From the IMG/VR virus record IMGVR_UViG_3300006789_000129, positions 1-26,683 of that record: DNA of 26,683 nucleotides; one strand, given 5' to 3'. The notes beneath the pieces are model-generated. The model was not told the origin of the DNA and did not search any database. It worked only from the letters and a program-made list of their open reading frames with translations. Position numbers and translations under genes: made by a program. Each line of letters starts with the position of its first letter. Position 1 is the first letter of the stretch. The DNA comes from a virus. Shown in pieces: positions 1 to 19,353 of the stretch.

Positions 1-3000
1 AACACCTAATTCTTTATAAAGTTTCTTATAGTCTCCTATTTCTTTTTCTGCGTATATTCTTGAATCTTCTAAAGACTTCCCTGTATTTTCTGCTAATGAC
101 TCTACGTATTCGTTAAAATACTTTTGATCCATCTTTTCTATAATCTCTTTTACTTTAGTTATATTAGTAGGATCATTTATAGCATCTTTAAAACCTTTAA
201 TAATACGTTGTCTATCTATAGCACCTATATCAATAAAAGCGTCGTCTAACAGCAACTCTCCTAAAGTATTTTTATCTACAAAATCTTTATCGTCTAACAT
301 AGCTCGTAAGACTTGTTTTTGTTTGCTAGTAAATTTAACTTTACTTATTCTATCTTCAAACAAATCTTTAGAAGCTCGCTCAGGACCTTTTCCAGAGCTC
401 ATGTCTAATATATAGTTCTGCCAACCTTCAGGTTTATTTTCTTTTAACCATTTTTCAAATTGCTTTCCAGTAATAGATTTACCTAATTGGTGTATAGCAG
501 CTTTAATTCTTTGGTCAACCTTACCATTCTCTTTAAGAGTTTGAAACTTACCGTCAGGCATAATTCCAAAAAACTCTTTCATTCCTGCTTCATTAAACGC
601 TAGCTTTTCTTTACCCATCAAACCAGGTCCAGTTTTTTGAGCAAACTCTCCTTCTCTGTAAAATAAAGCTTTACCTTTAGCATCGACCGCTTTTAGTAAA
701 ACATTTTGAATACCTGTCGAATAACCTCTTACACCTTCTTTTCCTGACTCTGCATAACCATTAGCCCATGAATCGAAGATTTCTTTAGCTTGCTCATTGA
801 TTTTATTTTGAGCACTTTCAACTTCTTTTTGAGTTAATCTAGTTGACTTAGGATTTATTTTACCATCAGATTTATTTATCTTACTTTCTTTAACACCAAA
901 GTATTTTGCTACTCCTGAGAAATCAGGCGTAGTTTTATATGAGAAATTTTCTTTTTCCCAATTAATTTTTTCAGCATCAGAATCTAATTTAGATACAATT
1001 TCTTTAGCTTCAGCTTTGTTTTTAACCACAGTTATAGGATCAAGCTTAGCGTTGCCTTGAGCATCTGTTCTACCCTCTTGGAAATCTAATGCTTTACCAG
1101 TAGCCGATCTACCTTTTTCTACTAATCCTTCAAATATTTTATCACTAGCCTCACCACTTACTTTTTGTAGTAATTTTATTTTATTACCTTCTTTGTAAGC
1201 AACTCCAGCATCAACTAAAGCATTACTAACTTGCTTTTTTAAACCTTCTATAGCGTAAGCTCCAAAAGGTATTTCAAGGTTTGAAATTAATTCTTTTCTA
1301 GCTTCAAATGCTTCTTTACTTTCTCCTGTTCTCTGTTTAGTATAAGCTGTGTTCCCGTATCTTCTAGCATATTCTTGTAATTGTTTATCTAAAGAGTCTA
1401 AGAAAGCTTCTTTAGTAATCTTATCCATCATGTCTCTGCCTTCATACTTTGACAATACCTCTCTAGGTAGTCTAGTATTATTAAACCACAGCATCATTTG
1501 ATCTTCAGGTGTTTTTGCCTCGTAAGGCGTTACATTCATTTCCTTAGCCCTAGCTTGAATATTTTTTACTATGTCAGTATTTTCTTGCGTTATTTGTTCT
1601 GTTGTTTTATCACCCGTAAAATCAAAGTCCATAGACTTTTTACCTGCTTTTTTCTTTTTTATTCTTGCAGCTACAGCTTCTTCATAAGATTTACCTTGAT
1701 CAGCCAATTGCATTTCTTCTAACGCTGAAACGTTCTCTAATCTCTTATTGTTAGAGTCCATTAAACGTCTCATTTGTTTACTAAAAGAGCTATTATATTT
1801 TCCAGATGTAATCCCTTTGTTTAGAGCATATATAGTTGATAACACTTCTGATCCAGTCTTGATGTTTGTTTTAGCTAAACCTAACGGCTTACCTATTTTA
1901 CCCATCATTTTCATAACTGTAGAATACGTTTTACCAGTTAAATACTTATTAGTAGCTTGAACCATAGGATCCGATGCTAATTCCATCATGTATGTAAAAT
2001 ACTCTTCGCTTCTATCTTTTTTAGAATAACCTTCTTTATCAGAATATTTCTCTGATATAAAATCAATAAGTTGTTTTCCTGTTACTTCTCCATATTCACT
2101 ATGGTTAAAAGTCATATTAGAAGTTTCATTAGCAAATTTCTCAACCTGCTTTAAAAAGTTTTCTTTAGCAACTGGGTTATCCTTAAAGTAGTGTTCTACA
2201 ATAGCGTGCCCAATCTCATGTGGTACTTTACCACGCTTGTACTTGTTAAGATCAAGATGTATAATACCACCATCCTTGTTTGGCTCATATCTAGCAGCTG
2301 TGTTATCACCTTCTAATTTTCCAGCTCTCCAAGCGTCTCCTCTCCCTATAACTATCTTAGGATTTTTCCAAGAATTATTTCCGTCTTTATCAGTGAAATT
2401 ACCTGATTCTCTTATTTGATTAAAATAACCTTCAAGATGAGCTTGTAGGTTTTGCTCAAATTGTGGGTCTACAATTCTATCACCATTAGCATCTTCTTTT
2501 GGTAGTCCAGTATCTTTATCAATTACCCATGGATCTAACGCGTCATATTGAGTCTGTATAGCTATTCTTTGAGAAAGACCATGGTATATATCCATGTTAC
2601 TTTTTAACTTTCTGCCAAGACGATTCATTTGTTTTTTCTTATTACCACTAAAACCCTCACCAGTGTCAAGCATTTCTAAAAGTTTAGGTAAAGCTAAATT
2701 TTCTGGTAAATTGTTAATTTCAGACCTTTGCTTATCGCTTAAGTTTGTCCAAACTTCATTTAACGTGTTATCTCCACTAGCATCTACACTTCCATCTTTA
2801 TTTCTTTTAAAACTAGTTAGAGAACCATCTAATCCAGACATTTGTCTTAACTTAGCCTGTGCTTTAAACCTTGCTTTATTTCCAGAAAATAAACCAGTAT
2901 ATTGACTTCTACCTTTTTTAGTAAAAACATCTGTGACTATATTATCTCTAGCGTTTACACCTGTTAATTGAAACATCAACGTGTTAGAAACAATTCTTTT

Positions 3001-5796
3001 AAACATTTCGTCTTGATCACCGTACAGCTCATCCATTGTATCAGAGAAATCTCTATCATTACTTAGCTCATCTGCAAGAGCATGTACTAATTGATCTGCC
3101 TCAATAGCCATAGCCCCTGATGGTCCTTTAGTTAAATATCTTTGTGACAACCTTTGTAAAGCTGGTCTATTCTTTGTTAAGAAATTCATTTTACCTAAAG
3201 CAGATCCAAATCCAAAAAAGAAAGCACCAGTACCTAAGCCAAAGTCTGCGGTATTAGCTTGCATCTTTATCTCCTCTCTTAAAGCTCCAGTTACAAATCT
3301 TCTAGCTTTAGTGCCAGCAAAAAACTTTGCAGCTTTACTCACGTCGTGACCTCTTTTTATTGCTACCCCTAATCTAGCAAGAGCGGCTGGTGAAGCCATT
3401 CCAAAAGTCGCAGCTTCAAATATTGCAAATTCAACTAAAGTTGGAACAAAATTTCCAATAGCTCCAACCGTTGCTTCAGTATACCCTATTTCTAGATTTT
3501 CTTTTGCAGCTTTTGATAAGTTGACAGCTTCTATTTCACCACTTCTTACTTCTTCACTATTGTTAATGACACTAACAGTATTTTCAATCATGTTCATTCT
3601 ATCTCTTGCCGTAGACGCAGTGTTGTATAAGTGAGATGGAATACCATCTCCCCACATAGTTCCAAAAGCTCTTACTACTGTAGTACCTCCATCTGACGCT
3701 ATATCTTTTAAGTAACCTGGAACATCTGATATTGAATTTACATTTCTGTAAGGAGCGGTCATATCTGCTGGATCTGTACTTAAATAACCAACCTCATAAA
3801 GACCTTGCGTTTCTCCTTTGGTAGCATAATACTCTAACTGCCAATCTTTAAAATCTTTTCTATCCTTTTCAGAAAGATAGTTCATACTTTCGTCCATCAT
3901 CCCCTCAAACTGAGTATATGTCATACCGCTTTGTAGTAACTCATTGTACGTTACATCTATGCTATTTATTCTTTCGCCGTTCACGTCTTGTAAAAATGTT
4001 GTTCCTTGACCTGTAAGATCTAATTCTACAGGATCATCCCCCATCCTAGTATATCCTCTCATAGCCTTCTTTTGGTTGTAAGTAGAAACTTCTTGACCTC
4101 TTTTCCTTAATATTTTCGCAATTGCACTATTTGCCCAACCTCCTTTAGAAGTATTAAATGTTAATTTAGCACCATTACCTATAGCAAGTAATTGATACTT
4201 GTCCTCAACTGATTTCTCAAACATGTCTTTAACAGCTTTAGACTGCGGAGTTTTAGACTTAACATCTGCTGAATTATTTAAATTGTTTTGAGATTGAGCA
4301 ACTAGCTTAGCATTTTTTTGACGTTTTAAAACCTCTGCTTTTTCTTCATCGCTTAACAAGGTTTGATCTAACCAAGTGTCTTTAACAAACAAATCAGCTC
4401 CATTTTTCTTTAATATTAAAGCTGCGTTTTCATAATCCTTATATGCTTTTGTTAAATTTTCTTGATCTTCTGTACTTAAAGTTTCTTGTGATTGTAACGC
4501 TATTATTTTAGTTTCTGCTTGTTCAAGAGCGGTATTAGCACTTATTATGGTTGGAGTTTGTGGATTTTGATTAGTATAGTAATTAGTTAGACTATTGTAA
4601 TCTCTTTCAAATTCATTACGACTTAATCCTTTGTATTCATAACCAGCAGCATTCATGTTTATTGCTTGTTCTCTATTATCTCTAACTGCTTGATTAATGC
4701 TATTTACAAACACATCTTTTGAAATTAGTTCATCAAAAGAATCTCTGCTCATTTTGTATCCTTGTTGGCCAGAATTAATAATTAATTGCTCATAAGCATC
4801 ATCTAATAATTGATCTCTTGTATATTCATTTTTATCATGACTAATGTTATACCAACTAGGATCTGATACAGCCGTTCCTTCTTCACCACTGAAAAGTTTA
4901 GATCCTACAGATCCACCTGTTTTTTCATTCAATAAATTAACAATAGAATTTTTTATAATATTAGATTGTTCAAGTATTTCTTCACCAGTCATTGGGGCTT
5001 GAGTAAATTGAACTGCTCCTTCTCCTATTGTCGCTTTCTCTTCATCTGGTAAATTTTTATAATCTTCAAGAGAAATGAATTGATCTTTAACCATTCCATA
5101 ATCGCCTCCAAAATCCGACATAAAGTCCCTATTTGCGTCTTTAGTAACTCCAGTTGTTTCATAAACTTTAGCTTGTGTAGGGTTAGCATTTTGCTGAGAA
5201 TTTTCACCTATAAACCCCATTAACGCAGCATAATTAGGATATGCATTAAAAGGATTATCCATAAAATCAGGTGCAGACGTGTTTGCGGTGTAAACAGTTA
5301 TATCTTTACCAGTGACTTCGGACTTTACATTAACGGCATCAACACCTGGTCTGACTGGAACTGTTACTTTAAACTGATCACCATATTTTTCTTCTAAAAT
5401 ATCTACTAACGTATCTTCTCCTTGCATTTCAAATTCCTCGTAACTCAAAGTAGATGAAGAAACATCTTCTTCTTCTTTCTTTGGTTCTTTCCACCAGTCT
5501 CCTAAGGCTCTAACCCCAGGGTCACTACCCCAACCTACATCACTAACAGCTTGTATATTGTTTTCAGAAATATAATCTTCAAAAGTTAAGCCATTGTCTT
5601 CTGCTGCTTGCAATACTTCTGACTCAGAATAATTATTATCATCCCAATTGTAGTGTTTTTCTTGCTCTTGCTTCTCTACCCTGCTTATCCCATTATTGTT
5701 GATATAATCTTCAACAGATAAACTTTGCTGTGCAGCAGCAGCAGCTATCTCTGATAGGGAGTACTCACTTCCTCCCCATATATATACTTCTTCCAT
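1..5796 (-). CDS. Giant internal/ejected virion protein with HExxH metallopeptidase-like site (partial, C terminus off the window)
   Basis: I read this frame by hand from ATG at 5796 down to base 1 with no stop, giving at least 1932 residues; the 3' end lies outside the window. Residues 12-37 and 56-81 are two copies of a short helical repeat ending in EDYI. The N-terminal third is acidic and polar. Residues about 775-812 form a hydrophobic, Ala/Gly-rich stretch. Residues 1193-1197 read HEIGH, preceded by a strand-like IIHLDLN and followed at 1264-1265 by EE in SEEYFTYM, the layout expected of a HExxH...E zinc peptidase. The rest is Lys/Glu-rich helix. It is the last and largest of three genes behind the tail genes, where podoviruses encode internal core or ejection proteins, so that role is inferred. 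I saw no RNA polymerase DxDGD motif in the visible part. The leader is A/T-rich, 6 bases after the previous stop. Confidence 0.8.
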   Translation of the reverse strand, partial: MEEVYIWGGSEYSLSEIAAAAAQQSLSVEDYINNNGISRVEKQEQEKHYNWDDNNYSESEVLQAAEDNGLTFEDYISENNIQAVSDVGWGSDPGVRALGDWWKEPKKEEEDVSSSTLSYEEFEMQGEDTLVDILEEKYGDQFKVTVPVRPGVDAVNVKSEVTGKDITVYTANTSAPDFMDNPFNAYPNYAALMGFIGENSQQNANPTQAKVYETTGVTKDANRDFMSDFGGDYGMVKDQFISLEDYKNLPDEEKATIGEGAVQFTQAPMTGEEILEQSNIIKNSIVNLLNEKTGGSVGSKLFSGEEGTAVSDPSWYNISHDKNEYTRDQLLDDAYEQLIINSGQQGYKMSRDSFDELISKDVFVNSINQAVRDNREQAINMNAAGYEYKGLSRNEFERDYNSLTNYYTNQNPQTPTIISANTALEQAETKIIALQSQETLSTEDQENLTKAYKDYENAALILKKNGADLFVKDTWLDQTLLSDEEKAEVLKRQKNAKLVAQSQNNLNNSADVKSKTPQSKAVKDMFEKSVEDKYQLLAIGNGAKLTFNTSKGGWANSAIAKILRKRGQEVSTYNQKKAMRGYTRMGDDPVELDLTGQGTTFLQDVNGERINSIDVTYNELLQSGMTYTQFEGMMDESMNYLSEKDRKDFKDWQLEYYATKGETQGLYEVGYLSTDPADMTAPYRNVNSISDVPGYLKDIASDGGTTVVRAFGTMWGDGIPSHLYNTASTARDRMNMIENTVSVINNSEEVRSGEIEAVNLSKAAKENLEIGYTEATVGAIGNFVPTLVEFAIFEAATFGMASPAALARLGVAIKRGHDVSKAAKFFAGTKARRFVTGALREEIKMQANTADFGLGTGAFFFGFGSALGKMNFLTKNRPALQRLSQRYLTKGPSGAMAIEADQLVHALADELSNDRDFSDTMDELYGDQDEMFKRIVSNTLMFQLTGVNARDNIVTDVFTKKGRSQYTGLFSGNKARFKAQAKLRQMSGLDGSLTSFKRNKDGSVDASGDNTLNEVWTNLSDKQRSEINNLPENLALPKLLEMLDTGEGFSGNKKKQMNRLGRKLKSNMDIYHGLSQRIAIQTQYDALDPWVIDKDTGLPKEDANGDRIVDPQFEQNLQAHLEGYFNQIRESGNFTDKDGNNSWKNPKIVIGRGDAWRAGKLEGDNTAARYEPNKDGGIIHLDLNKYKRGKVPHEIGHAIVEHYFKDNPVAKENFLKQVEKFANETSNMTFNHSEYGEVTGKQLIDFISEKYSDKEGYSKKDRSEEYFTYMMELASDPMVQATNKYLTGKTYSTVMKMMGKIGKPLGLAKTNIKTGSEVLSTIYALNKGITSGKYNSSFSKQMRRLMDSNNKRLENVSALEEMQLADQGKSYEEAVAARIKKKKAGKKSMDFDFTGDKTTEQITQENTDIVKNIQARAKEMNVTPYEAKTPEDQMMLWFNNTRLPREVLSKYEGRDMMDKITKEAFLDSLDKQLQEYARRYGNTAYTKQRTGESKEAFEARKELISNLEIPFGAYAIEGLKKQVSNALVDAGVAYKEGNKIKLLQKVSGEASDKIFEGLVEKGRSATGKALDFQEGRTDAQGNAKLDPITVVKNKAEAKEIVSKLDSDAEKINWEKENFSYKTTPDFSGVAKYFGVKESKINKSDGKINPKSTRLTQKEVESAQNKINEQAKEIFDSWANGYAESGKEGVRGYSTGIQNVLLKAVDAKGKALFYREGEFAQKTGPGLMGKEKLAFNEAGMKEFFGIMPDGKFQTLKENGKVDQRIKAAIHQLGKSITGKQFEKWLKENKPEGWQNYILDMSSGKGPERASKDLFEDRISKVKFTSKQKQVLRAMLDDKDFVDKNTLGELLLDDAFIDIGAIDRQRIIKGFKDAINDPTNITKVKEIIEKMDQKYFNEYVESLAENTGKSLEDSRIYAEKEIGDYKKLYKELGV
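2002..2220 (-). other. Candidate zinc-binding site (HExxH plus downstream EE) in the giant virion protein
   Basis: HEIGH occupies 2206-2220 (residues 1193-1197). The EE pair at 2002-2007 (residues 1264-1265) is a candidate third ligand about 70 residues later. The residue pattern after HEIGH lacks the metzincin GxxH extension, so a gluzincin-like arrangement is the better guess. The motif is seen directly; catalytic activity is inference. Confidence 0.5.
5554..5763 (-). repeat. Two-copy N-terminal protein repeat (EDYI motif)
   Basis: Residues 12-37 and 56-81 of the giant protein align without gaps: both start Y-S-x-S-E, continue with an alanine-containing helix, then L-[ST]-[VF]-E-D-Y-I-x-x-N-x-I. 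The period is 44 residues. The copies differ at DNA level, so this is an old protein duplication, not a recent DNA repeat. Confidence 0.6.
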
Positions 5797-5802
5797 ATAT
5801 TG

Positions 5803-7635
5803 TTATTTAGTTCCTGGTAGGTTTGCTTTTTTGGCCATTACTTTCCCTTTTTCTCCAACACTTTTATTCCAAGCAGCTAAAGCATCTTTCAAAGTAGTTA
5901 ATTTTTTTATATCTTTATCCCATCTCCTTGATTTATTCCGGTTATCCATAAAATCTTGTATTTTCTTTTTCTGTCCTGCACTTAATTTAGCAGGATCTGT
6001 TATTTCGGGAGCTGAAGGATCAAGAGATCCACCTTCTCTCATTTTATGTCTAACTCCCGTAAAGTTTAGTGAGTATTGTTTTAACTTACTTAAAGCTGCG
6101 TCATCATAACCTGCTGCTTCATATGTCCTATTCATAACAGCATCACGATTATTTGAATTTTGTAACCATACTTTAGGATTACCATTTTCGTCTATTTCAA
6201 ATATAGAGTTTTTATAGCTATCTTTATAAACACCTTTAGCATTTCCTTTTCTAAACGTCTTCAACCATTCTTCTTTAGTTTCGTCATCCATTCGGATTTG
6301 TCCCCCTAGTACTTGCTGTTCTATTTCATTAATAGTGTAATATTTCGTTCCATTGCCTGGCAGACTTCTTAAGTAGTCAGCATATGCTTGTGGACCTTGT
6401 GTTTTACTAAAGAAAGAATTTGCTTGATACTGTAATTTTTGGAAGTCCTCAACATCTGCAGCTGGTGGTGGTACAACTGGAGTTGGTGGCTTATATCCAG
6501 TATTTACTTTTGTGGAACTAGCGTTTGTAACGTCAAACCCTTTACCTTTATCATCTACAATAAACATATTAGCAGCGTAGTTAGCAGCTAGATATTGAGC
6601 AGCTTCTTTCATAGGCATTTTTTTACCCATATAGGTTGTTACTTCATCTGGCTTATAATAACCTGGATCTTCAGTATAATCACCTGACACTGCTAAAACC
6701 TCCCAAAAAGTTTGCATTTGCTCCGTATCTTGTAGTAGAGCTAAACTCTTGTTTCTAAATGCTTCTTTATAAGCTTTCTCATCTATATATACTTTTTTAC
6801 CACCAGTTGTGGTTATATATCTACCACCACCACTTAAACGTTGACTTTCACTAGTTTCCGTGGTTTTAAAAACTTCAGGAGTTTGAGCAAGATTTTCGTG
6901 TATTAGCTTTAAAGATTCTGTAGGGTCTTCATTAAACTGTATAGGGTAAGTAGCATTTTCCCCTGTCATTATATTAGTTATAAGTTCTACAGGTACTTTA
7001 ACATCTTTTCCCTTAATGTTTTTAACATAATATGGCTCTCCTGCTTTACCAACTTCATACTTAACATCACCACTATTATCAAATACACCTTTTACAATTT
7101 CTACTAAATTAGCAGTATTACCACTACCGTTGTAAATCATTTTACCTATATCACCTTTTTTTAAGCCATTAGATGCTTGTATTTTATTATTTAGTTCAAA
7201 CAAAGATCCGGTATTAGCTACCATAGCGTCCAACGTTCTTTCATTTTTAGCTATTGTTTCGTATGCCTTACTATGGCCCATAGTTAATCCTTTCCCATCA
7301 TATTTCTCACCATATACACCTTGGCCTAAAGCTGCTTGTGTTCTTGCGTTTGATATATCACGAGCAGCATTTCTTAATGTGTCTCTAGTGTTATCATCAA
7401 AAGTAGTTCCTAGTTGTTTCTCAGCAAGAAGAGCTTGGTCATAAGCTGTTTCAAAATCTTTTATATTTTGTTTTTCAAGCTCAAATAATCTTTGTCCTTC
7501 TAGTTCATATTTAGCTGTCTCTCTAGTATAATCTAAAGTGTTTCTAGCAGCAAGACTCTTTGTAAAGTCATCAGTTGCTTTGTAAGCTTCTGATAAATCT
7601 GCAGTAGATCTTGGGGTTAATTTTACTTTTGGCAT
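5803..7635 (-). CDS. Probable internal virion (ejection/core) protein, 610 aa
   Basis: I do not recognise a named family. The N-terminal 130 residues are predicted mostly helical and charged (MPKVKLTPRSTADLSEAYKA, then Glu/Lys-rich helix). The middle holds beta-like stretches rich in Gly and Lys. A proline-rich linker (PPTPVVPPP) near residues 381-390 separates this from a C-terminal half that ends in a highly basic helix rich in Lys and Arg. No signal peptide or membrane segment is visible. It sits between a 259-residue Ala/Gly-rich protein and the giant protein, spaced 14 and 6 bases from them, in the position where short-tailed phages keep proteins carried inside the capsid and injected with the DNA. 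That role is inferred from order and composition alone. The start is ATG with an A/T-only leader. Confidence 0.8.
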   Translation of the reverse strand: MPKVKLTPRSTADLSEAYKATDDFTKSLAARNTLDYTRETAKYELEGQRLFELEKQNIKDFETAYDQALLAEKQLGTTFDDNTRDTLRNAARDISNARTQAALGQGVYGEKYDGKGLTMGHSKAYETIAKNERTLDAMVANTGSLFELNNKIQASNGLKKGDIGKMIYNGSGNTANLVEIVKGVFDNSGDVKYEVGKAGEPYYVKNIKGKDVKVPVELITNIMTGENATYPIQFNEDPTESLKLIHENLAQTPEVFKTTETSESQRLSGGGRYITTTGGKKVYIDEKAYKEAFRNKSLALLQDTEQMQTFWEVLAVSGDYTEDPGYYKPDEVTTYMGKKMPMKEAAQYLAANYAANMFIVDDKGKGFDVTNASSTKVNTGYKPPTPVVPPPAADVEDFQKLQYQANSFFSKTQGPQAYADYLRSLPGNGTKYYTINEIEQQVLGGQIRMDDETKEEWLKTFRKGNAKGVYKDSYKNSIFEIDENGNPKVWLQNSNNRDAVMNRTYEAAGYDDAALSKLKQYSLNFTGVRHKMREGGSLDPSAPEITDPAKLSAGQKKKIQDFMDNRNKSRRWDKDIKKLTTLKDALAAWNKSVGEKGKVMAKKANLPGTK

Positions 7636-7649
7636 ATTAATTTATTTTA

Positions 7650-8429
7650 TTAAAAGAACCTTCTTTTATTATTATCCAAGTCTTCTTTAGTAGTAGTATA
7701 TGTTCCAGCTTGAACACCTAAAGCACCTAAGCTCCCTAATCCTCCAGCTAAACCTTCCATACCTTCAACCATTCGCTGGTTATATAAATCTGCTTTACTT
7801 TGTTCATAATCCATTTGTTGATCCAACCTAGAGAACTCTGCTTGTTGAACCATCATATCTCCTTTAGCGGCTAATTGAGCATTTCTAGCTTCTTGTTTTT
7901 CTATGTCTGATGCTATACCTTGTTTTGAGTTGGCAGCTGCTCTAGCTAAAGCTGTAGCTCCACCTGCTCCATAACCTGTTTCTCTCATAGTATCAAGAGT
8001 GTTTGCTAATACTTGATCAGTTTCTTCAGCTTTCATCTCTGCAGCTTTAGTAGCTACTGGCATATTTGCATAAGGATTTCTAATAGGCTTAGACATGTAT
8101 TGCGACATTAAGTTATCAACTAAACCTTGTTGATTTTTAGCATCTCTTTTTGCTTTACCATACTGTATCCCTGACATCACAGTAGCTCCTAATGCTGGTA
8201 CTGCTCCTGCCGCTAACCCCATCCAACTTGTTTGTTGAACTGGTTGTTGTCCTTGCCATATGTCCCATGCTTGCTGCATAGGGTTACTTACCGGATTTGC
8301 CGGTGGATTTGTACCAAATAAAGCACTAGAGGATACTGTAAAAGCTCCTCCACCCATAGGTCCTGGTCCAGAGCCTTGTGCGTTACCTACATTAGTATTA
8401 GTGCCCGCGTTTTGTCCATGATGTGCCAT
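7650..8429 (-). CDS. Probable small ejection protein, Ala/Gly-rich, 259 aa
   Basis: The N terminus (residues 1-65) is a low-complexity Asn/Gly/Pro/Gln tract. Residues 69-88 (WMGLAAGAVPALGATVMSGI) form a hydrophobic stretch that could insert in a membrane, and 226-240 is a second Gly/Leu/Ala-rich one. Between them residues 120-215 are a long Ala/Gln/Glu helix containing GAGGATALARAA followed by SKQGIASDIEKQEARN, a pattern I recall from unnamed proteins of uncultured marine phages. Small proteins with a hydrophobic stretch and an Ala/Gln-rich helix lying just after tail genes are typical ejection proteins (compare T7 gp14 by position, not by sequence). The function is inference. The start follows the 620-residue protein by 10 bases, with leader AAATT before ATG. 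Confidence 0.75.
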   Translation of the reverse strand: MAHHGQNAGTNTNVGNAQGSGPGPMGGGAFTVSSSALFGTNPPANPVSNPMQQAWDIWQGQQPVQQTSWMGLAAGAVPALGATVMSGIQYGKAKRDAKNQQGLVDNLMSQYMSKPIRNPYANMPVATKAAEMKAEETDQVLANTLDTMRETGYGAGGATALARAAANSKQGIASDIEKQEARNAQLAAKGDMMVQQAEFSRLDQQMDYEQSKADLYNQRMVEGMEGLAGGLGSLGALGVQAGTYTTTKEDLDNNKRRFF

Positions 8430-8439
8430 AATTTAAATT

Positions 8440-10302
8440 TTAATAAGATGATATAGCGTAATCCGAAGATACCGCAAATAATTCTTTAAGTCCATAAATG
8501 TCTGTTGTTGTGTCAGTTGATATTTTAACAGTAGCAAAAAATCCTTTAATACCAGATACGTTTTCACCATTTTCTGAAATAACAACCTGACCAGGTCGTG
8601 TGCTGTTAGATAAATAACCAGATCTATCATATTTGTTTCTCAAGTTAGCATGATACTTATTCTCTCGTAAATTAAATCCTAACCTATAGTTTACTCCTCC
8701 TTCAGTATATAAACCTTCGTCATAACTATAAACAGTTTTAACCTCGTCATTAAATGTTTGACCTCCAACAAATTCTTCACTGTCAGAGATAAAGCTTTCT
8801 ACTTGCCAACCATTAGTTCCTTCATACCCCACTGTTTTGAAGTTTTTGTTAACAGATGGATTAGCATTAAATATAAAAGTTATAGAGGAATTTACTGGTT
8901 CAGCCTCATAATAACTATTTCTATACCCGTTTAAATCATAATGAATATATAAATTATTTCCTTTAGTGCTATATAAGTTGTTTCTTAAACTTTTTGTATT
9001 ATAAGGGTAATAACTATAAAAACTAACCCAACCTTGACTCATTTCATCATAAGATAAAGTATGATAAGAGTCGTCCGCTGTAGGTGATGTGCCATAATTA
9101 ACAAGAGATAGTATGTAATTATCTTTATATGTGTCATAAACACCTATAATTCTATCTTGTTTATATGAAACAAATACTACACCATCTGAAGGATGACCTG
9201 TGACACCTAAGTTTTGGCTAGGTAAGCCTACTAAATAAACTCTACTTGTTGAAAAATCAACAGATGCAACGTATGATTGACAATCGATTAAATTACCACT
9301 ATGTCTTAAATATAAACCCATTCCAGGTTCTATTAAATCAAACTGCTCTTGAGTGTAAGTTGTTAAAGTTATGTAAATAGGGGTTGCAAACGGAGGAAGG
9401 GAACTAGGATAAGGCCATGTAGGGTTTTGTGATAATCCACCTGGATCTAAAAAATCTACTGTATATAAATATGGATCATCTTTTATATTAGCTAATTCAT
9501 CTCTAAAAAAGTCATTCATTCCATAATTAGAAATCTCTGTAATACCATCTTTAGATAATCTACAAATTGACTTTCTATATTTGTCTGCAAAATATTTTCT
9601 AAATCCAAATACATCAAAACTATCTGGGTTTTTACTTATTCCATACTCTCCAGTATATGGAGTGATTTGTCCTAAAACCAAAGGCGTCGATGTAACTGCA
9701 GCTGAACCTTCAGCGGAATAAATAGCGTCTTTATCGATTAATACTGAGCTAACTTTATTTTCTTGAAATACAGTTAAATTAGTATTTTCTGCATACATTC
9801 TTTGTATACCTCCATAGTGTGGGTCTAAAGACTTGGTTATGTCTTCAGCTACTGAAAATACATTTGTTTCATTATAAGATGTTCTAGAGTTGTATACTCC
9901 TGAATATATAATAGAATTAAACCTATTGTTAGGTTGTGGATTTTCTTCTACTAAATAAGCTCTAACACCTAAATCTGTTATTGTATTATTAAAACCTCCT
10001 CTAATTCTAGCTTCTTCCACTATCCAGTTAGGATCAGTAGTTCCTATCACCCATTGACTAGCGTCTTTAGCGACGTTAGAAATAGGATATTGAACGTAAG
10101 GAGATGGTACAGTAACCGGATTTGGAACCCAAAAAGGATACCCATCTCTTTCATAATTAGATCCTTCAACGCTTGGCCAAGTTCTATAAATAGCTCTATC
10201 AGAACTACTAAAGTCAGTGCCTCCTTGAGCTGTATCTCTATTAGTTACTAGTCTTCTTAATACATAAGAGTTATAATAATCTACTTCTAATTCAAAAGCC
10301 AT
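8440..10302 (-). CDS. Tail/muzzle-companion structural protein, 620 aa
   Basis: This protein is rich in Tyr, Asn, Ser, Gly and Thr with alternating hydrophobic strands, as expected of an all-beta tail component. Its best conserved-looking part is residues about 127-270: FNSIIYSGVYNSRT, then VAEDITKSLDP, NTNLTVFQENKVSSVLIDKD, GEYGISKNPDSF and CRLSKDGITEISNYGM. I recall these strings from structural proteins of marine Bacteroidota and crAss-like phages, where the region belongs to the tail tip or muzzle assembly. It directly follows the 1363-residue muzzle-like gene, so the two products probably form one assembly; in some relatives they may be one chain. The C-terminal third is beta-rich with no motif I recognise. 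A receptor-binding role is possible but nothing in the sequence proves it. ATG start; the gap to the upstream gene is 35 bases without a hairpin. Confidence 0.8.
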   Translation of the reverse strand: MAFELEVDYYNSYVLRRLVTNRDTAQGGTDFSSSDRAIYRTWPSVEGSNYERDGYPFWVPNPVTVPSPYVQYPISNVAKDASQWVIGTTDPNWIVEEARIRGGFNNTITDLGVRAYLVEENPQPNNRFNSIIYSGVYNSRTSYNETNVFSVAEDITKSLDPHYGGIQRMYAENTNLTVFQENKVSSVLIDKDAIYSAEGSAAVTSTPLVLGQITPYTGEYGISKNPDSFDVFGFRKYFADKYRKSICRLSKDGITEISNYGMNDFFRDELANIKDDPYLYTVDFLDPGGLSQNPTWPYPSSLPPFATPIYITLTTYTQEQFDLIEPGMGLYLRHSGNLIDCQSYVASVDFSTSRVYLVGLPSQNLGVTGHPSDGVVFVSYKQDRIIGVYDTYKDNYILSLVNYGTSPTADDSYHTLSYDEMSQGWVSFYSYYPYNTKSLRNNLYSTKGNNLYIHYDLNGYRNSYYEAEPVNSSITFIFNANPSVNKNFKTVGYEGTNGWQVESFISDSEEFVGGQTFNDEVKTVYSYDEGLYTEGGVNYRLGFNLRENKYHANLRNKYDRSGYLSNSTRPGQVVISENGENVSGIKGFFATVKISTDTTTDIYGLKELFAVSSDYAISSY

Positions 10303-10337
10303 AATTTATAATCACTTGTTTTTATACTATTTAACAA

Positions 10338-13300
10338 TCAATCAGTTTGTGTTTCATAAAACCTAACGTAAGCGTAATAATCTATACTTTCTTGTCCACC
10401 TGTAAAGTCTTCATAAACTTTATAGGTTATTCTATAAGTTATATTAAGGGAATTAGGTAAAGGTGTATTAGCATTACCTCCTAAACTAGGCGGATTTGTA
10501 GTGCTTGTGATAATTCTTTTATCGGAATTATCTACAACAAAAGGAGACTGTGATAAAGATTTTTCCCAATAATTTGAAGGATTTTTAACCCAAGAACCTA
10601 ACTGATTACTAGCTCCCCATTGAGGGTTGTAACCTGAACTTTGCCAATATATAGTACTAGTGTCAACTCTAATTATTTTCACTTTTAAACCATAAGTTCG
10701 TTCAGCTTTATAAGGGTCGAGTATAGTAGACGGTGGTGGGTTATCCCCTAATCGAGTCCCATTTTGTAAATAATAGTGTTCATTAGTTGAAGCTGAGGGT
10801 TTAACATCTTGATCCCAATTCCATCTTCCAGTACTTGCATATTGTACTTTTTGTGGATCATACCATCTCCAAAATTCATGATCAAAATCTACAATTTCTA
10901 TGCTACTACCATTAAAGTTAGCTTGGGAGACATCCCAACATAAACCTCCAGTAATGTTTTTGTAACTATGAGGCCACCAACCACTAGATGGTTTATTCCA
11001 CAAATCTGTTAAAGCTATAGGTTCTCCATATAAATCGTTAGCAAAAGCTTTTGTAACATCGCTATATGGAGCATCACCATCTATTCTAGGAGCTATGTTA
11101 GATAAATCACCTATAAAAGAATAATTATCAACCACGCCGTTTGCTGTAATTTTTAAAACAAACAGGAATTGATCATTACTTGGCAATCCTTTATATATAA
11201 AATTTGGTGGGGTTTGCGCAGCGTTATTAGATAATCTAATTTTAAATCTAGGAGCAGCACTACCAGGCGTACCAGCAGTTGATTGATACACTTGAAACTT
11301 ATCAGTTATTAAAGGTCCAGATGTGGTAGAACCTTGATATACTTCTTGTAGCGATATAGTAGATAACCAATCTGCTGTAGTACTACCATTAGAGTCGACA
11401 ACTTCAAATTCATTTGTAACTATATCGTCACCTGCTGCAAAGTTTTCTCTTTGAATAAATGCAAATTCTGTAACACCACCTAAGCCATTTAATGTAGCAT
11501 CGTTATTTATACTATTGTTTAATTCTGATATTAATCCAGAGGTAGTGGTTTCCCAAAGTATATTTAAATTAGATTTAGTAGGTTTTGTTTCAAAAACACC
11601 AATTTGCCTAGTTGCTATAGTTATATTGTTAACGCTTGTGTAGCTAGGTATAGTACCAATTCTATTTTTAGTTGACAATGTTGCTATATGAGGATTTTCT
11701 CCACTTCTCCAAAATATATCTCTAAACTCTATAGTGTTTACAGTAGCTGGAGCCATTGGAATAGATGGAGAATAGAATGGATACCAAGGGTCTGGATTAC
11801 CTAGACTTGTAGAATCTACAACATTTTCTTTTCCAGGATAAAACTGTCCTTTAGTAGTAGTCCATTTATCAAAATCAAAAAACTGCTTTATAGTATTTAC
11901 TGAAATTTTATCAATAGCTGCGTCAGTTGCTACTTGTGTACTGTAAATTGATTCATCGTCATTACTTACTGTGCCTGAGTTAGGATTTACTCTACAAAAT
12001 AAAACAGTGGAACTACCAAAGTTTTTATCTAAAGGTCCTACGTTTTCTAAATTTCTTGGAATTTTATTTATATTATCACCTAATAAGGCTATATTAGCAT
12101 TTGTTTTAGACTCATTGAATTCAGGTCTTCCAAGACCATTTCCATCTCCAACATTAGATCCGTCCCAATCAATTCTTCCAGCTAAAACACCGGGAGTATA
12201 AACATTGTAATAATCTTGATCCTGCTGTTTTACCACAATTCTATAACTGTACCAACCTAATGGATTGCTAGCACTGTATAGTCCACCTGTTGCTTTAGCC
12301 GTTGGTATTAAACCATTAAAAACTACTTTTAATGAGTTACCAGGCCATTCAACAGGGTCGTTATTAGCATTACTGTAAGATGTAAATATAGTGGAATCTC
12401 TAGCTGAATTGTTACTTGTTAATACACTTTCATTTAACAACACGTTTGAAGATCTACCAAATCTATCTACTAATACAATGCCAACTTGATATGTTCTGTT
12501 TTGTTTAAGAGTTTGTAAAGGATATTCCCAACGTGACAACTGAGCAGGTTTACTGGTATCTAAATTAAATTTTTCATTAATCTTAACAGAGTAATCTATA
12601 AAATTAGGAGCATTATTCCTGTCTATGTAATTACCGTACATTACTCTATTGCCCGTGACGTCTTGCGTCATTGCTCTAATTGGAGCTTTATCATGTACTC
12701 GTGTAGTTGCTTTTTCTGGTAAAACTTTATATGGTTCAGTAGATTTGTACTGGTACAAAAATTGATCTTTTCTTAAATCAGCATCCCATCCCACTAAATC
12801 ATCTCCGCTTAATGTTATTACAACTTGTGGACTTCCATCACCTAATTCGTTTGCTGGTATTATAATTACGTCTCCAGCTCTAAATCCAGAACCTGAGTAA
12901 GTGCATTTAATGTCTTGAATATCGTTATTAGCGGTTGTATAAACTTGTAGTCTAACTTTTTTACCATTACCAGTTACAACCACAGTAGTTGGATTATGAT
13001 ATCCTATATCAAAAGCTGTTGTTGCAGCAAAAGTTATTGTACTATTGTTTAAGTCACCACCAGCAAGCGTTATGGGGTCTTTATAATTTATAGGAGCTCC
13101 AATATGGCTTTCAAAGTCTTCAAGATCTATAGAATCTAAAACCTTTATATTAGTTGATTCAGATTCTTTAAACAATATATCTATACCTGTAACATTAAGC
13201 TTACTATAAATTTCATCATAATTATATGGTAAATCTATAGTACATCCAGCAGTGGTTAACTTATTTTCAAAAAACTCTACAATAGTGTTTTGTTTTGTTT

Positions 13301-14429
13301 TTTGTTCATCACCTTCTAACCAGTTTCCATCTTGTTTAGATAAAAAAGCAGGTTGAGTAAAAGGAGCCATTAGAGAGTATTCTCCATCCTCAAACTTAAA
13401 TCTATAACTAAATCTTACAAACTTATCTTTTAAATAATCCTTATCTCCACTAAAATTTGGATTGTAAAAAGGATTAGCAACAGCTATTTCATAGGTATCA
13501 GGAGCTGTGTTAGTAGTGCTCCAATCGGACGGGAAAGTAGTTAAACTAACATATGGTGTATCACCAATACTTACAGCATCGTTTAATCTAGATGTTATAA
13601 AATACCATTTAGATAACTGTGTTTTGTTTCGTAAAAAATATCTTGGAGACGCGGTAGAAGTTATTGCGGCATAATCCTCTAATTGTCCCATAAACTTAGG
13701 TGTTAATCCAGAAGCTCCAAAATCGATATATTTTGTTGTTCCACTTGTTACTGGTATTGCAGGAGCTGTAAAATGTGGAGGAAGTTGCTCGCTAATATCA
13801 TCTATTAATGTAGGTTGAAATATAATATCAGAACTAGCTGCGCTTGAAGCGGTTACGTTTTCTACGAATCTTATAGAATTTACAGGAGCATATTTTAAAA
13901 CACTTATTAAATCTTCACTATTGTAATAAGAAGGAGAACTTTTTGCTTTATTTATATTTATTTTTCTAGGTTGATTTCTATTATCTGTCCAGAAAAGTAA
14001 ATCTTCTATAATATTTACACTATATATCTTGTGAGTTTTAGAAAAATTAAGAAAACTACCTTGCGCTAATACTACTCCAGACCCTGCGTTAGCGTCATAC
14101 ATAGCTATGTAACATCTAGCAGAAGAAAATAAACCAGCATGATTATTTAAATTATTTGTACTTGAATCATTATAGTTTGTTATAAAGCAAAATATCCTAT
14201 TAGTACTAACATCGCTGTGTAATCCAATAATTTCTAAATGCTTATCAGGTAGATTAAAGTTTTCAATTTGTAAAGTACCTCTTATATTTTCTAAAGCACC
14301 CACGTCAGAACCTTCTGACTTACTTATACTAACGTCTCTAGCATCTCGATATTCTCCATTGGGCAATAACCTAGCGTCTAGATCTTTATTCATTCTAGAC
14401 TTAAGAAAATTATTTTGTACTTGTGGCAT
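10338..14429 (-). CDS. Muzzle-like / tail stabilisation structural protein, 1363 aa
   Basis: The N terminus reads NKDLDARLLPNGEYRDARDV, a signature I recall from large tail proteins of crAss-like and marine podoviruses (muzzle or 'stabilisation' protein). The first 200 residues look like beta-propeller blades (FCFITNYND, CYIAMYD, DLLFWTDNRNQPRKINI). Around residues 415-450 is a helical and strand segment, then a GSGF beta module (about 456-545), then VRALTQ-type core seen here as APIRAMTQDVTGNRVMYGNY. Further on, GVFETKPTKSNLNILWETTT is another string typical of this family. The C terminus is beta-rich with many Asn, Ser and Thr. The length fits the roughly 1300-1400 residues I recall for crAss-like muzzles. 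It starts 2 bases after the ring-protein gene and is followed by a 620-residue companion. Assignment is from remembered motifs and order, not a search. Confidence 0.85.
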   Translation of the reverse strand: MPQVQNNFLKSRMNKDLDARLLPNGEYRDARDVSISKSEGSDVGALENIRGTLQIENFNLPDKHLEIIGLHSDVSTNRIFCFITNYNDSSTNNLNNHAGLFSSARCYIAMYDANAGSGVVLAQGSFLNFSKTHKIYSVNIIEDLLFWTDNRNQPRKININKAKSSPSYYNSEDLISVLKYAPVNSIRFVENVTASSAASSDIIFQPTLIDDISEQLPPHFTAPAIPVTSGTTKYIDFGASGLTPKFMGQLEDYAAITSTASPRYFLRNKTQLSKWYFITSRLNDAVSIGDTPYVSLTTFPSDWSTTNTAPDTYEIAVANPFYNPNFSGDKDYLKDKFVRFSYRFKFEDGEYSLMAPFTQPAFLSKQDGNWLEGDEQKTKQNTIVEFFENKLTTAGCTIDLPYNYDEIYSKLNVTGIDILFKESESTNIKVLDSIDLEDFESHIGAPINYKDPITLAGGDLNNSTITFAATTAFDIGYHNPTTVVVTGNGKKVRLQVYTTANNDIQDIKCTYSGSGFRAGDVIIIPANELGDGSPQVVITLSGDDLVGWDADLRKDQFLYQYKSTEPYKVLPEKATTRVHDKAPIRAMTQDVTGNRVMYGNYIDRNNAPNFIDYSVKINEKFNLDTSKPAQLSRWEYPLQTLKQNRTYQVGIVLVDRFGRSSNVLLNESVLTSNNSARDSTIFTSYSNANNDPVEWPGNSLKVVFNGLIPTAKATGGLYSASNPLGWYSYRIVVKQQDQDYYNVYTPGVLAGRIDWDGSNVGDGNGLGRPEFNESKTNANIALLGDNINKIPRNLENVGPLDKNFGSSTVLFCRVNPNSGTVSNDDESIYSTQVATDAAIDKISVNTIKQFFDFDKWTTTKGQFYPGKENVVDSTSLGNPDPWYPFYSPSIPMAPATVNTIEFRDIFWRSGENPHIATLSTKNRIGTIPSYTSVNNITIATRQIGVFETKPTKSNLNILWETTTSGLISELNNSINNDATLNGLGGVTEFAFIQRENFAAGDDIVTNEFEVVDSNGSTTADWLSTISLQEVYQGSTTSGPLITDKFQVYQSTAGTPGSAAPRFKIRLSNNAAQTPPNFIYKGLPSNDQFLFVLKITANGVVDNYSFIGDLSNIAPRIDGDAPYSDVTKAFANDLYGEPIALTDLWNKPSSGWWPHSYKNITGGLCWDVSQANFNGSSIEIVDFDHEFWRWYDPQKVQYASTGRWNWDQDVKPSASTNEHYYLQNGTRLGDNPPPSTILDPYKAERTYGLKVKIIRVDTSTIYWQSSGYNPQWGASNQLGSWVKNPSNYWEKSLSQSPFVVDNSDKRIITSTTNPPSLGGNANTPLPNSLNITYRITYKVYEDFTGGQESIDYYAYVRFYETQTD
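12795..13064 (-). other. GSGF beta module inside the muzzle-like protein
   Basis: Residues about 456-545 form a Thr/Val/Asn-rich beta segment with YSGSGFRAGDVIIIPANELG and then VVITLSGDDL. The same layout occurs in the ring protein encoded at 15599-16693. Boundaries are approximate and judged by composition. Confidence 0.5.
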
Positions 14430-15598: not shown

Positions 15599-16693
15599 TT
15601 ATTGTTTTTCGTTACTTTCGTCTTTTTGTACTTGAGCTAAAGCAGTTTGCACAGCTTGTGGATCTCTTATTATAACACCTGCGTATAATAATATATTTAA
15701 TATAACTTCAGATTGCTCTGAGTTGTGTAACATGAAATCTGTAGAACCTTGAGCAGAAGCACTCATAAGATTATTAGCTGTTAAAACTATAGTAGCAGTA
15801 CCTGTACCAGCACCACCAGGAAATGTAGCTGAAGCAGCGTTTATAGTTATTGTATCTCCAACAGCGAAACCACTACCAACACTGGCTACAGTTACAGATG
15901 TTACTGTATTAGAGGCAACTGTAACAGTTACAGAGCCACCTGTACTAGAACCGCTTGTAAAAACTGGATCTGCAACATCTGAAGTAATATTAATAGTATA
16001 AGTACCATCTGTTAAACCAGTTGTAGTATTCGTATTAAGAGTCAAAACTTGACTTAAAATTAAAGAACTTGTGTTATATGTGGTTGCATCATATAGGAAT
16101 TGCCCTATACCACCTAAAACATAACCCCATCTTGGTTCGATAGGTTTTTTTAAGTAATCTAATTCTATAGGTGTTTGTTCATCTTGAGTGGCTATAACTG
16201 GAAATACTTTAATTTTATCTCCTTCGTAAAGAAATATGCCATAATTTTTAGATGGTTGAACTAGCTTTGACCTTCTTATTAAATTAAAGTCGTGTCTATT
16301 TACTCTTTGTAATTCCTTATATTGAGTGCTATATACAAAACCCGTGCTACCTGCTCCATCATTAAAATAGTTAACTTGTCTATAAGATACATTTCCTAAC
16401 TTGTATAAATCACTTGGTATAGTAAAATTATCATTATTTTTGTCATAAGCTGGTAAAGAACTAGTTTTAAACTCTTGTAATTTTTCTTCAGTTAATTCTA
16501 ATCTATCTGCGTAATCGATATCATTTTGAGGTTGTCTAGATTGTTGATTTAAATCTTCAAAATATCTTTCAAATATTTCTCGTTGAACCTGATTACTTAT
16601 TTTATTAAATTCGTCAGGAGTCATGTAACCTCTTTGTTCCTTATTAAGGACTAATAGGACTGTTTTATATACCGTATTTACGTTTATTGCCAT
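15599..16693 (-). CDS. Ring/adaptor-type connector protein with inserted GSGF module, 364 aa
   Basis: The N terminus (VNTVYKTVLLVLNKEQRGYM, then TPDEFNKISNQVQREIFERY) is a pattern I recall from the first ring or adaptor protein of crAss-like and marine podoviruses. Residues 60-200 carry the strand-rich core (YGIFLYEGDKIKVFPV, LDYLKKPIEPRWGY). Residues about 205-310 are quite different: a Ser/Thr/Gly/Val-rich stretch with GSGFAVGDTITI and few charged residues. The ancestral-looking end resumes at STDFMLHNSEQSEVILNILL and RDPQAVQTALAQVQ. I therefore read 205-310 as an inserted beta domain. It is the first gene after a strong terminator, so it needs read-through or its own promoter; I saw no flavobacterial-type promoter in the 53-base gap. 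ATG start, A/T-rich leader without Shine-Dalgarno. Confidence 0.8.
   Translation of the reverse strand: MAINVNTVYKTVLLVLNKEQRGYMTPDEFNKISNQVQREIFERYFEDLNQQSRQPQNDIDYADRLELTEEKLQEFKTSSLPAYDKNNDNFTIPSDLYKLGNVSYRQVNYFNDGAGSTGFVYSTQYKELQRVNRHDFNLIRRSKLVQPSKNYGIFLYEGDKIKVFPVIATQDEQTPIELDYLKKPIEPRWGYVLGGIGQFLYDATTYNTSSLILSQVLTLNTNTTTGLTDGTYTINITSDVADPVFTSGSSTGGSVTVTVASNTVTSVTVASVGSGFAVGDTITINAASATFPGGAGTGTATIVLTANNLMSASAQGSTDFMLHNSEQSEVILNILLYAGVIIRDPQAVQTALAQVQKDESNEKQ
15764..16081 (-). other. Inserted GSGF beta module in the ring protein
   Basis: Residues about 205-310 are almost free of Lys, Arg and Glu and are made of Thr/Val/Ser strands and Gly turns, with GSGFAVGDTITI near residue 273. The flanking residues read as one continuous connector family on either side, which is why an insertion is inferred. 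Confidence 0.5.
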
Positions 16694-17895: not shown

Positions 17896-19353
17896 TTATA
17901 CAGTAGACTTAAACAATACGAAGTTATTCGCAGCTTGAGTTACTAAACATCTTTCAGATAAGAAGTGTATTTGCATCGCATCTAATCCAGATGTATAAGC
18001 GCCACCTACAGAACCAACAACCCAAGATTTATATCTTCTATCATCAGCTTCTGAAGCTCTATATCTTACATGCAAAAATGGTCGTCTAATGTTAGATCCC
18101 ATCATTTGGTCATAAACAGTAGTTGTTCCAGCTGGAATTAAAACTCCATCAATGTCTTCTGTTAAACCTCTTGTAGAAGCATCATTAAGATATTTCCAAT
18201 CAGTTTTGTAGAAGTCATAAGAACCTCTTCTGAATCCAGAGAATCCAAAATTAAGAGCCATATCAGCATCATTATTAAATAAACCATAAGAAGCAGCACC
18301 TGTTGAAGCATAAGATCCGTTCATAGCAGCGATCATATCATCAAAATCAAGAGCTGTTTGTCTGTTTAAAAATAACATGTTTTCTTCAATAGCACCTTGC
18401 TTGTCTAATTGTTTAAGGATAGCATCAAAGTCAGCCATTGCGCCTGAACCAGGAGCAGCAGCACCAGCGAAATCATTATAAATGTTTCCTCTAGCTTCGA
18501 TAGCGGCGAACATACCTTCAGAACCATCTAAAGAAACACCACCAGAAGCACCTTTTTTCTCAGCTTCAACCATTGACATTTCAAGATAATCTTCAAATCT
18601 CAATCTAGTTTCAGACTCAGCTTTTAAATACCATAAGTATCCAGATGTTCCATCTTCAGCAGCAACTTCAACCCATCCAATCTGAGCAGTGTCAGAACCA
18701 GAAACTTCATAGAAGTCTTTAAGGATGATTGGCTTATTGCTAAACTGAGTAAAATCAGGTTGAATAGCAGCAACACCAGAAGTAGCTAAATTAGCAGCAG
18801 CTTCCATACCTTGTGTACCTTTTCCAAATTCAGAGCCATAAACAAATAGTTTAGCTTCACCTGAAGCTCCAGCTAAAGAAGCCATATTGGCAACCTTATA
18901 AGTTTCAACCGTAATGGTAGCGACTCTAGGTGCTCCACTAGCTGCTGAAACGTCAGAAACTCTACCTTTTAAAGTAACTAATCCTTCTGAAATTACAATT
19001 GTTTGTCCTTTTCTTACAGCACACTGCTTTCCAGCTTCAATAGGAACTGTAATTGTTGTGCTTGTCGCAATAGTACACCCATCGTAAGAAACGTGTAATC
19101 TATTTTGTTCAGACCATATTACTTGATCTGATGTCATTGGCATTTCAGCGCCAACCATTCTTAAGAAACCTTGTAACGTTCTGTTACCAAATCTCTCTAC
19201 TTCTGCCTCATACAATTCTGGTAAGTATTGTTGTGCAAAAGAATCACTGTCACCAGAACCAGAACCACCGTTGAATGACAAGTAGTTAGTATCTAACGCT
19301 TGTTTTTTCTGATGTGGTATTAATCCTGGAGCATTAGTTATATCTAATCCCAT
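17896..19353 (-). CDS. Major capsid protein (HK97-type fold expected), 485 aa
   Basis: The N-terminal arm is acidic and Gly/Ser-rich, then comes SFAQQYLPELYEAEVERFGN, helix-like and typical of an HK97 N-arm. Residues 95-170 are strands (TITVPIEAGKQCAVRKGQTI). Residues about 220-280 include YEVSGSDTAQIGWVEV and SETRLRFEDYLEMSMVEAEK, a long helix that could be the spine helix. The last 100 residues (GVLIPAGTTTVYDQMMG, then RRPFLHVRYRASEADDRRYK) look like the A-domain and P-domain end strands. The length is close to the roughly 490 residues I recall for crAss-like capsid proteins. The gene is more GC-rich and less biased to A/T-ending codons than its neighbours, consistent with high expression. 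It lies 19 bases after the scaffold gene. No cleavage site is recognisable. Confidence 0.88.
   Translation of the reverse strand: MGLDITNAPGLIPHQKKQALDTNYLSFNGGSGSGDSDSFAQQYLPELYEAEVERFGNRTLQGFLRMVGAEMPMTSDQVIWSEQNRLHVSYDGCTIATSTTITVPIEAGKQCAVRKGQTIVISEGLVTLKGRVSDVSAASGAPRVATITVETYKVANMASLAGASGEAKLFVYGSEFGKGTQGMEAAANLATSGVAAIQPDFTQFSNKPIILKDFYEVSGSDTAQIGWVEVAAEDGTSGYLWYLKAESETRLRFEDYLEMSMVEAEKKGASGGVSLDGSEGMFAAIEARGNIYNDFAGAAAPGSGAMADFDAILKQLDKQGAIEENMLFLNRQTALDFDDMIAAMNGSYASTGAASYGLFNNDADMALNFGFSGFRRGSYDFYKTDWKYLNDASTRGLTEDIDGVLIPAGTTTVYDQMMGSNIRRPFLHVRYRASEADDRRYKSWVVGSVGGAYTSGLDAMQIHFLSERCLVTQAANNFVLFKSTV

Follow-up and report, generated by a model that had tools for sequence, protein, structure and literature searches.

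The window analysed here, a 26,683-base virus record, contains at one end an unusually long late gene whose product carries an HExxH sequence, and this locus raises the question of whether the giant protein contains a genuine metallopeptidase domain and, if so, what such a domain would do in a virion protein. A sequence-only reading had proposed a gluzincin-type zinc-peptidase-like site, carried by a giant protein that is probably ejected from the virion. Computation supports a conserved domain of zincin type, and the giant that holds it belongs to a family of virion proteins.

Phage affiliation and late-gene organization

The late genes of the window are of the crassvirus-related phage type (Table 1), and their relatives in the annotated phage collection are the Flavobacterium elemo phages, Cellulophaga phages phi38:1 and phi40:1, Maribacter phage Panino, Tenacibaculum phages, and the Manatee Spring genome. 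A crass-type muzzle, which serves as a criterion for Crassvirales, is present, both PF25731 and PF25729 scoring above the cut-off. The nearest classified relatives are phi40:1 (Pervagoviridae) and Gundel_1 (Pachyviridae), which the records place outside Crassvirales. The phage of the window is named here a marine crassvirus relative, Pervagoviridae/Pachyviridae-like.

The muzzle is encoded by two ORFs, positions 10338-14429 specifying the N-terminal part (1363 aa) and positions 8440-10302 the C-terminal part (620 aa). A two-ORF muzzle is also found in many marine relatives, and a single ORF in phi40:1, crAss001, and locus L095. Two more head/packaging proteins in the window matched phrog_13977 and phrog_14543 and are read here, by position, as ring-type proteins. 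A head/packaging protein encoded at 15599-16693 (minus strand) contains a Thr/Ser/Val-rich insert at approximately residues 212-303, which matches parts of other structural proteins.

Table 1. Positions in the window of the late genes and of the elements of the candidate peptidase site
Feature	Position	Strand	Basis
Giant cargo-type protein, 1932 residues visible	1..5796	-	ATG at 5796; homology to L124 and L112
Zincin-type metallopeptidase domain (predicted), ~residues 1109-1275	1972..2472	-	Family alignment; AlphaFold2 model; VIA zincin matches
E1265, predicted third metal ligand, second E of SEEYFTYM	2002..2004	-	E in 41/43
HEIGH, residues 1193-1197, two predicted metal ligands and general-base Glu	2206..2220	-	Invariant in 43/43 (set chosen for the motif)
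610-aa protein, cargo protein C2 position	5803..7635	-	Position only; cf. crAss001 gp46 and phi40:1 gp100
259-aa protein, cargo protein C1 position	7650..8429	-	Homologous to phi40:1 gp099, E 5e-6
Muzzle, two ORFs	8440..14429	-	PF25729 3.1e-9 and PF25731 5.8e-13, both above the curated cut-off
Major capsid protein (MCP)	17896..19353	-	phrog_13704 8.5e-92; 39-54% identity to four isolate/genome MCPs
Portal protein	20556..22976	-	phrog_6547 2.8e-141
Terminase large subunit	22977..25199	-	Position only: adjoins portal as in MW202828 and PP540027

The giant protein and its probable place among virion proteins

The ORF of the giant has no stop codon before the end of the window, so the C-terminus of the protein is missing. 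Searches with the whole giant found no match in the annotated phage collection or in Pfam at E up to 0.1, and nothing convincing among PHROGs (phrog_20708 at 0.029) or PDB sequences; peptide patterns of the full giant or of the domain likewise found no match in viral_contigs. Relatives were reached instead via the neighbouring MCP and muzzle genes. Among the giants obtained in this way, full-length matches to the window giant at E up to 1e-5 were limited to those of loci L124 (30.7% identity over 1825 aa) and L112 (25% over 1703 aa), with partial matches to L094 and L138. A short repeat of the YSxxEVxxAAxxxxLSxEDYI type occurs twice near the N-terminus of the window giant (residues 12-32 and 56-76; 5557-5775, minus strand) and once in L134.

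Giants are found at the same locus, behind the muzzle and two smaller proteins, in MW202828 (3859 aa), Panino (1829 aa), phi40:1 (1691 aa), elemo (3694 aa), and Gundel_1 (2482 aa). In crAss001 and phi14:2, the muzzle, C1, and C2 genes are likewise followed by gp47 and g067, respectively, with one tail protein in between in phi14:2, and the ORF order in the window (muzzle, C1, C2, and giant) agrees with that leading to the gp47-position cargo of crAss001. As this order is common to the relatives, the giant belongs to the cargo-protein block.

Three proteins of phi40:1, gp099, gp100, and gp101, are virion proteins by MS/MS according to the record annotation, and peptidase-bearing giants are among the homologues of gp101 (L135, 3e-11; Gundel_1, 3e-15). 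The giant family is therefore a virion-protein family, though gp101 itself has no peptidase domain. Directly compared, the window giant and gp101 gave an E-value of 0.095, and the link between them runs through position and the giants of relatives. The giants of elemo and Gundel_1 are annotated as 'structural protein' in their records. Homology to an MS/MS-detected relative and the position in the cargo block thus bear out the earlier suggestion of a probable virion protein; the window giant is very probably packaged in the virion and would be delivered into the host.

Occurrence and conservation of the HExxH site

Translation of the minus-strand ORF 1-5796 places HEIGH at residues 1193-1197, exactly as had been read, and SEEYFTYM starts at residue 1263, its EE pair being residues 1264-1265. 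E1265 lies 72 residues after H1193, in agreement with the distance of about 70 residues given previously, and the interval 2002-2220 corresponds exactly to H1193 through E1265.

HExxH by itself is a weak motif, and Pfam gave no match to the domain, so that a chance motif in an alpha-helical protein had to be weighed. Sixteen muzzle sequences were used as queries, and the best 80 of 593 confirmed stretches were taken as loci; in 58 of them the muzzle is followed by an ORF of 600 aa or more, and in 22 it is not. Fifty of these 58 ORFs are at least 1000 aa long, and the eight shorter ones (truncated giants or neighbours, none with HExxH) were excluded. HExxH is present in 48 of the 50 giants from these best 80 of 593 loci, a few of which are near-duplicates; it occurs exactly once in 47 and twice in L129. 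Of the 595 remaining plus-strand ORFs with a length of 250 aa or more in these 80 of 593 loci, 2 contain it. Shuffled giants contain the motif in a mean of 0.295 of 50 (at most 3 of 50), and 0.0056 occurrences per 2000 aa are expected from the composition of these His-poor proteins. Chance is thus refuted for the family (48/50 vs 0.3/50 expected) and, in view also of the match to gut crassvirus domains described below (hhalign probability 91.6% vs at most 0.4% in controls), can be practically dismissed. A separate set of 19 stretches was obtained via the capsid gene, partly from the same records as the muzzle set. Three of these end before the giant, HExxH was found in 14 giants, and none was found in L103 (1655 aa, open) or L097 (934 aa, open). 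The Manatee Spring giant (L002:741-12320, minus strand; 3859 aa) contains HExxH at both 1615 and 2500, in differing surroundings.

The family alignment comprises 43 domains with that of the window first; it was restricted to HExxH-bearing members, four sequences having been dropped at 90% identity or more and two as truncated. Mean column identity is 16%, and the H, E, and H of the motif are invariant (43/43). The downstream residue aligned with E1265 lies 43-93 residues from the first His and is Glu in 41 members and Asp in two. The question of whether homologues lose the His or Glu residues can therefore be answered from both this alignment and the unselected count of 48 among the 50 giants (best 80 of 593 loci): the residues are present and conserved, and their role as zinc ligands is predicted from the sequences. 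In the two giants without the motif, the aligned site is degenerate and reads HExxxH in L123 and EExxH in L187. dN/dS ranged from 0.13 to 0.46, i.e. below 0.5 in all 10 pairs tried.

A profile built from the 43 domains also finds giants outside the training set, several at E 1e-43 to 1e-15 and, with filters off, those of elemo (4e-24; domain at about residues 1463-1668) and L092 (7e-19). Two loci of the capsid set are themselves profile members (L090 is identical to L164, and L093 to L183) and are not independent. The domain was not found by profile search of phi40:1, Panino, or L103. The degenerate sites in two giants and the absence of the domain from phi40:1 and Panino indicate that it is dispensable for some such giants. 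In Pfam, the window domain matched no family at E up to 10, the 43 members gave sub-threshold matches only (e.g. M78 in two, DUF6782 in two, and Tox-MPTase2 in one), and a search of the 43-domain profile against PDB sequences yielded no significant match (best E 0.035, an S-layer protein).

Predicted fold

An AlphaFold2 model of the window domain, based on the 43-row alignment, has a mean pLDDT of 73.6 (about 85-90 in the core) and a pTM of 0.73. It consists of a helix (residues 19-39 of the model), three strands (55-59, 76-79, and 86-90), a helix carrying H101 and H105 (98-111), and a helix carrying E173 (167-182), which is the element order of zincins. When the model was compared with the PDB by Foldseek, zincins (4l7a, collagenase H, Certhrax, IrrE, and MMPs) were among the top rows, intermixed with unrelated chains and with E-values of at least 0.024. 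After re-alignment by VIA, zincins ranked first and made up most of the 50 rows. The highest Z-scores were those of Certhrax (6.5; 161 residues aligned, 4.6 A), anthrax lethal factor (6.1), and PPEP-3 (5.7), followed at approximately 4-5 by 4l7a, IrrE (4.5), M36, SprT/Spartan (4.2), MATCAP, and ArdC; as a VIA Z-score below 8 can mean merely a common arrangement, the weight rests on the zincin majority among the rows. Certhrax and many lethal-factor rows are aligned to the N-terminal non-catalytic domain (~18-252), and others to the catalytic domain (464-770); the N-terminal and catalytic domains of these toxins both have the zincin fold. Matches of the window model in BFVD were large phage polyvalent proteins, the virion RNA polymerase of a Vibrio phage, the Gundel_1 giant, and crassvirus proteins.

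A second model, that of the L109 domain, was obtained with higher confidence (mean pLDDT 81.5, pTM 0.77) and shows a similar element order with shorter strands. Foldseek returned no zincin for this model (best E 0.59, a Pho85-Pcl10 chain), and its best VIA match was an unrelated structure with Z 3.3, collagenase reaching 2.2 and 2.0. This non-match is the main result that counts against the zincin-fold claim, and a weak match does not prove that the folds differ. Comparison with metallopeptidase folds, the check suggested with the initial reading, has thus come out in part: the element order and the best matches of the window model are those of zincins, at modest Z-scores (at most 6.5 to solved gluzincin/M34 structures), whereas the L109 model gave no convincing match. 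Taken together, the invariant HExxH, the near-invariant Glu, and the zincin-like predicted fold support a gluzincin-type peptidase-like site with putative metal binding and activity.

A homologous domain in gut crassviruses

The cargo protein gp47 of crAss001 (L192), which has been detected by MS in virions according to passages of PMC10172136, contains HEAFH at residue 2157 and a downstream EE. In phi14:2, g065 (L193; MS/MS in the record) contains HEIMH at residue 245 and a downstream Glu. Cargo or RNAP-associated proteins of true Crassvirales that MS has detected thus bear the motif as well. A search with the gp47 domain matched 56 phage records, and all 10 of the divergent matches examined, drawn from 25 of the 56 matches listed, keep HExxH in the matching frame; these 10 span Steigviridae and Suoliviridae, and two of the frames stop soon past HExxH. 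In an alignment of eight gut domains, H108, E109, H112, E144, and E145 are invariant.

The window giant and gp47 gave no match by blastp, and gp47 was not found by hmmsearch with the profile of the marine set. Profile-profile alignment (hhalign) of the gut set (ten frames and gp47, without the phi14:2 site) with the marine set, however, gave a probability of 91.6% and a score of 51, with HExxH placed on HExxH and the alignment confined to the peptidase domain. As controls, capsid, portal, and muzzle alignments gave 0.1-0.3%, the reversed alignment gave 0.4%, and the best of 30 column-permuted alignments scored 15.2. By profile comparison, gp47 of crAss001 thus carries a domain homologous to the HExxH domain of the window giant.

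Relation to known systems

The closest described counterpart is the zincin-like MPTase of polyvalent proteins, which, in the passages of PMC5512222 that describe it, combines an HExxH helix, a later Glu helix, and a helix with three strands in giant late-gene virion proteins. All of these features recur here. In the window model, HExxH lies in the first of two C-terminal helices and is invariant, Glu (41/43) lies in the second, and a three-stranded sheet with a preceding helix is present; the large multidomain protein lies near the muzzle, portal, and MCP genes, and its relatives contain a HAD-type DFDDT motif. The window domain differs in having no Pfam match, i.e. no match to a curated peptidase sequence family, and in having its relatives among crass-like phages that are flavobacterial or marine; the main text of PMC5512222 has no mention of crAss, Cellulophaga, or Flavobacteri. 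With sequence, fold-order, and context features shared and the match to a curated family lacking, the domain is best regarded as a divergent addition to the polyvalent-protein MPTases.

The C1 domain of the N4 virion RNA polymerase, as described in part of PMC12633501, likewise represents a conserved domain with HExxH inside a giant protein that is ejected. The N4 protein differs in having a T7-like RNAP in the same chain, whereas the giants of the window family showed no recurrent D-hydrophobic-D-[GAS]-D in a loose test. crAss001 gp47, annotated as 'putative RNA-polymerase subunit', is alike in its place behind the muzzle, C1, and C2, in its HEAFH with downstream EE, and in profile homology; it differs in that its domain lies near the C-terminus (2157 of 2341) rather than mid-protein, and no pairwise similarity was detected elsewhere. 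The best structural neighbours of the window model are the folds of anthrax lethal factor and PPEP, which we take to be M34-type, and of Certhrax (Z about 5-6.5); their identity to the window domain is 10-18%, they are tied among themselves, and a common fold does not show a function.

In a literature search covering main texts other than that of the 2018 crAss-like genome paper (Yutin), no paper was recognised as naming this domain in crassviruses. The main texts of PMC10136315 and PMC7886860 mention no protease, peptidase, or zincin, and the main text of PMC10172136 mentions no protease, peptidase, or zinc. In the literature so covered, the domain in human-gut crassvirus cargo appears to have gone unremarked.

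Possible role of the domain

In the proposed mechanism, His1193, His1197, and Glu1265 would hold a zinc ion, and Glu1194 would activate water. The giant would travel inside the capsid, pass through the tail in a partly unfolded state, and refold in the host, where the domain would cut its own giant, and perhaps partner cargo proteins, freeing separate domains (in relatives, a HAD-type phosphatase domain lies further along). According to passages of PMC10172136, crassvirus cargo is held in the capsid and is partly unfolded when it is extruded. For polyvalent proteins, it has been suggested that the zincin domains may process their own chain in the head or in the host (Iyer et al. 2017, PMC5512222, in part), and the same passages report that the N4 virion RNA polymerase, which bears a domain of this kind, enters the virion without being processed. 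A cut in the giant once it has been ejected is preferred here because the domain lies mid-chain between other domains, which it would free. Self-processing during or after ejection is therefore the favoured role, and the full proposal of a gluzincin-type metallopeptidase domain in a giant crassvirus-related cargo protein, the main job of which would be to cut the giant itself and perhaps partner cargo, has, in our estimate, about an even chance of being correct. Against this proposal stand the unprocessed N4 protein, the degenerate sites of L123 and L187, the lack of the domain in phi40:1 and Panino, the absence of a Pfam family for the window domain, Foldseek E-values against the PDB of at least 0.024, and the higher-confidence L109 model without a zincin match.

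An active protease that acts after delivery on host proteins (e.g. in defence, transcription, or the envelope) and not on the giant appears rather unlikely, with several observations in its favour: the window model comes closest in fold to zincins of the effector or regulator type (lethal factor, Certhrax, PPEP, and IrrE), the very high divergence around a fixed active site fits changing targets, and the giants vary by lineage, some being without the domain. The usual mid-protein location of the domain (residues 579-1583 in the giants), however, suits release by cleavage and action in trans equally. It is improbable that the domain is a virion-assembly protease by which the giant, or cargo other than it, is matured before packaging or in its course. 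A late gene next to those of the muzzle and further virion proteins would fit this role, and P1 DdrB is discussed in passages of PMC5512222 as being cut by its own MPTase before packaging, whereas the N4 virion RNA polymerase is described there as packaged uncut. That the zincin fold serves solely to bind metal or as a structural module, with no catalytic function, seems very doubtful; this would account for the two natural degenerate sites and the absence of the domain from some phages, but 48 of 50 giants retain all of HExxH, and selection on them is purifying.

In a broader proposal, virion-delivered metallopeptidases would be general to crassviruses and their marine relatives: the gp47-position cargo, filed as RNA-polymerase subunit or hypothetical protein, would bring an active zincin into Bacteroidota cells on ejection, and this zincin would cut cargo or host proteins within the first minutes of infection. 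We advance this proposal tentatively, as a possibility with somewhat less than even prospects.

To our knowledge, little is known of the roles of packaged crassvirus cargo proteins. An identifiable active site makes a giant filed as a 'structural' or 'RNA polymerase subunit' protein testable, and opens the question of whether ejection, early transcription, or host takeover depends on proteolysis. Cultured phages of this kind include elemo (Flavobacterium sp. BAL314), Gundel_1 (Tenacibaculum), and crAss001 (Bacteroides intestinalis), and crassviruses are described in the abstract of PMC10172136 as the human gut's most abundant viruses. Even if inactive, the domain provides a marker for comparing otherwise hypervariable giants.

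Other domains in the giants

A virion RNA polymerase reading of the giants was considered and set aside, the loose D-hydrophobic-D-[GAS]-D scan having found no recurrent motif; this negative is weak, since the phi14:2 vRNAP has DFDID, which the pattern misses. Phmmer searches of the full elemo and L089 giants against PDB sequences gave nothing meaningful.

An NDFxFADD block is present in 19 giants, 18 of which have a DFDDT motif upstream of the block; in 18 of the 19, this HAD motif is C-terminal to the peptidase. By motif, DFDDT is read as a putative HAD-type phosphatase, and in two of three giants the DFDDT region gave a weak to moderate match to phrog_415 'polynucleotide kinase' (9e-6 and 0.0018). 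Since L124, whose homology to the window giant extends over 1825 aa, carries DFDDT at residue 2202, past the window end and some 440 residues after the alignment stops, the window giant probably has it too. DFDDT followed by NDFYFADD was seen in the C-terminal half of L104, L095, L109, L124, and other giants, and is followed by a strongly conserved block of ~130 aa. In the elemo giant (L005:18852-29936, plus strand), DUF3293 (PF11697, 1e-12) occupies residues 1323-1392, directly before the peptidase domain.
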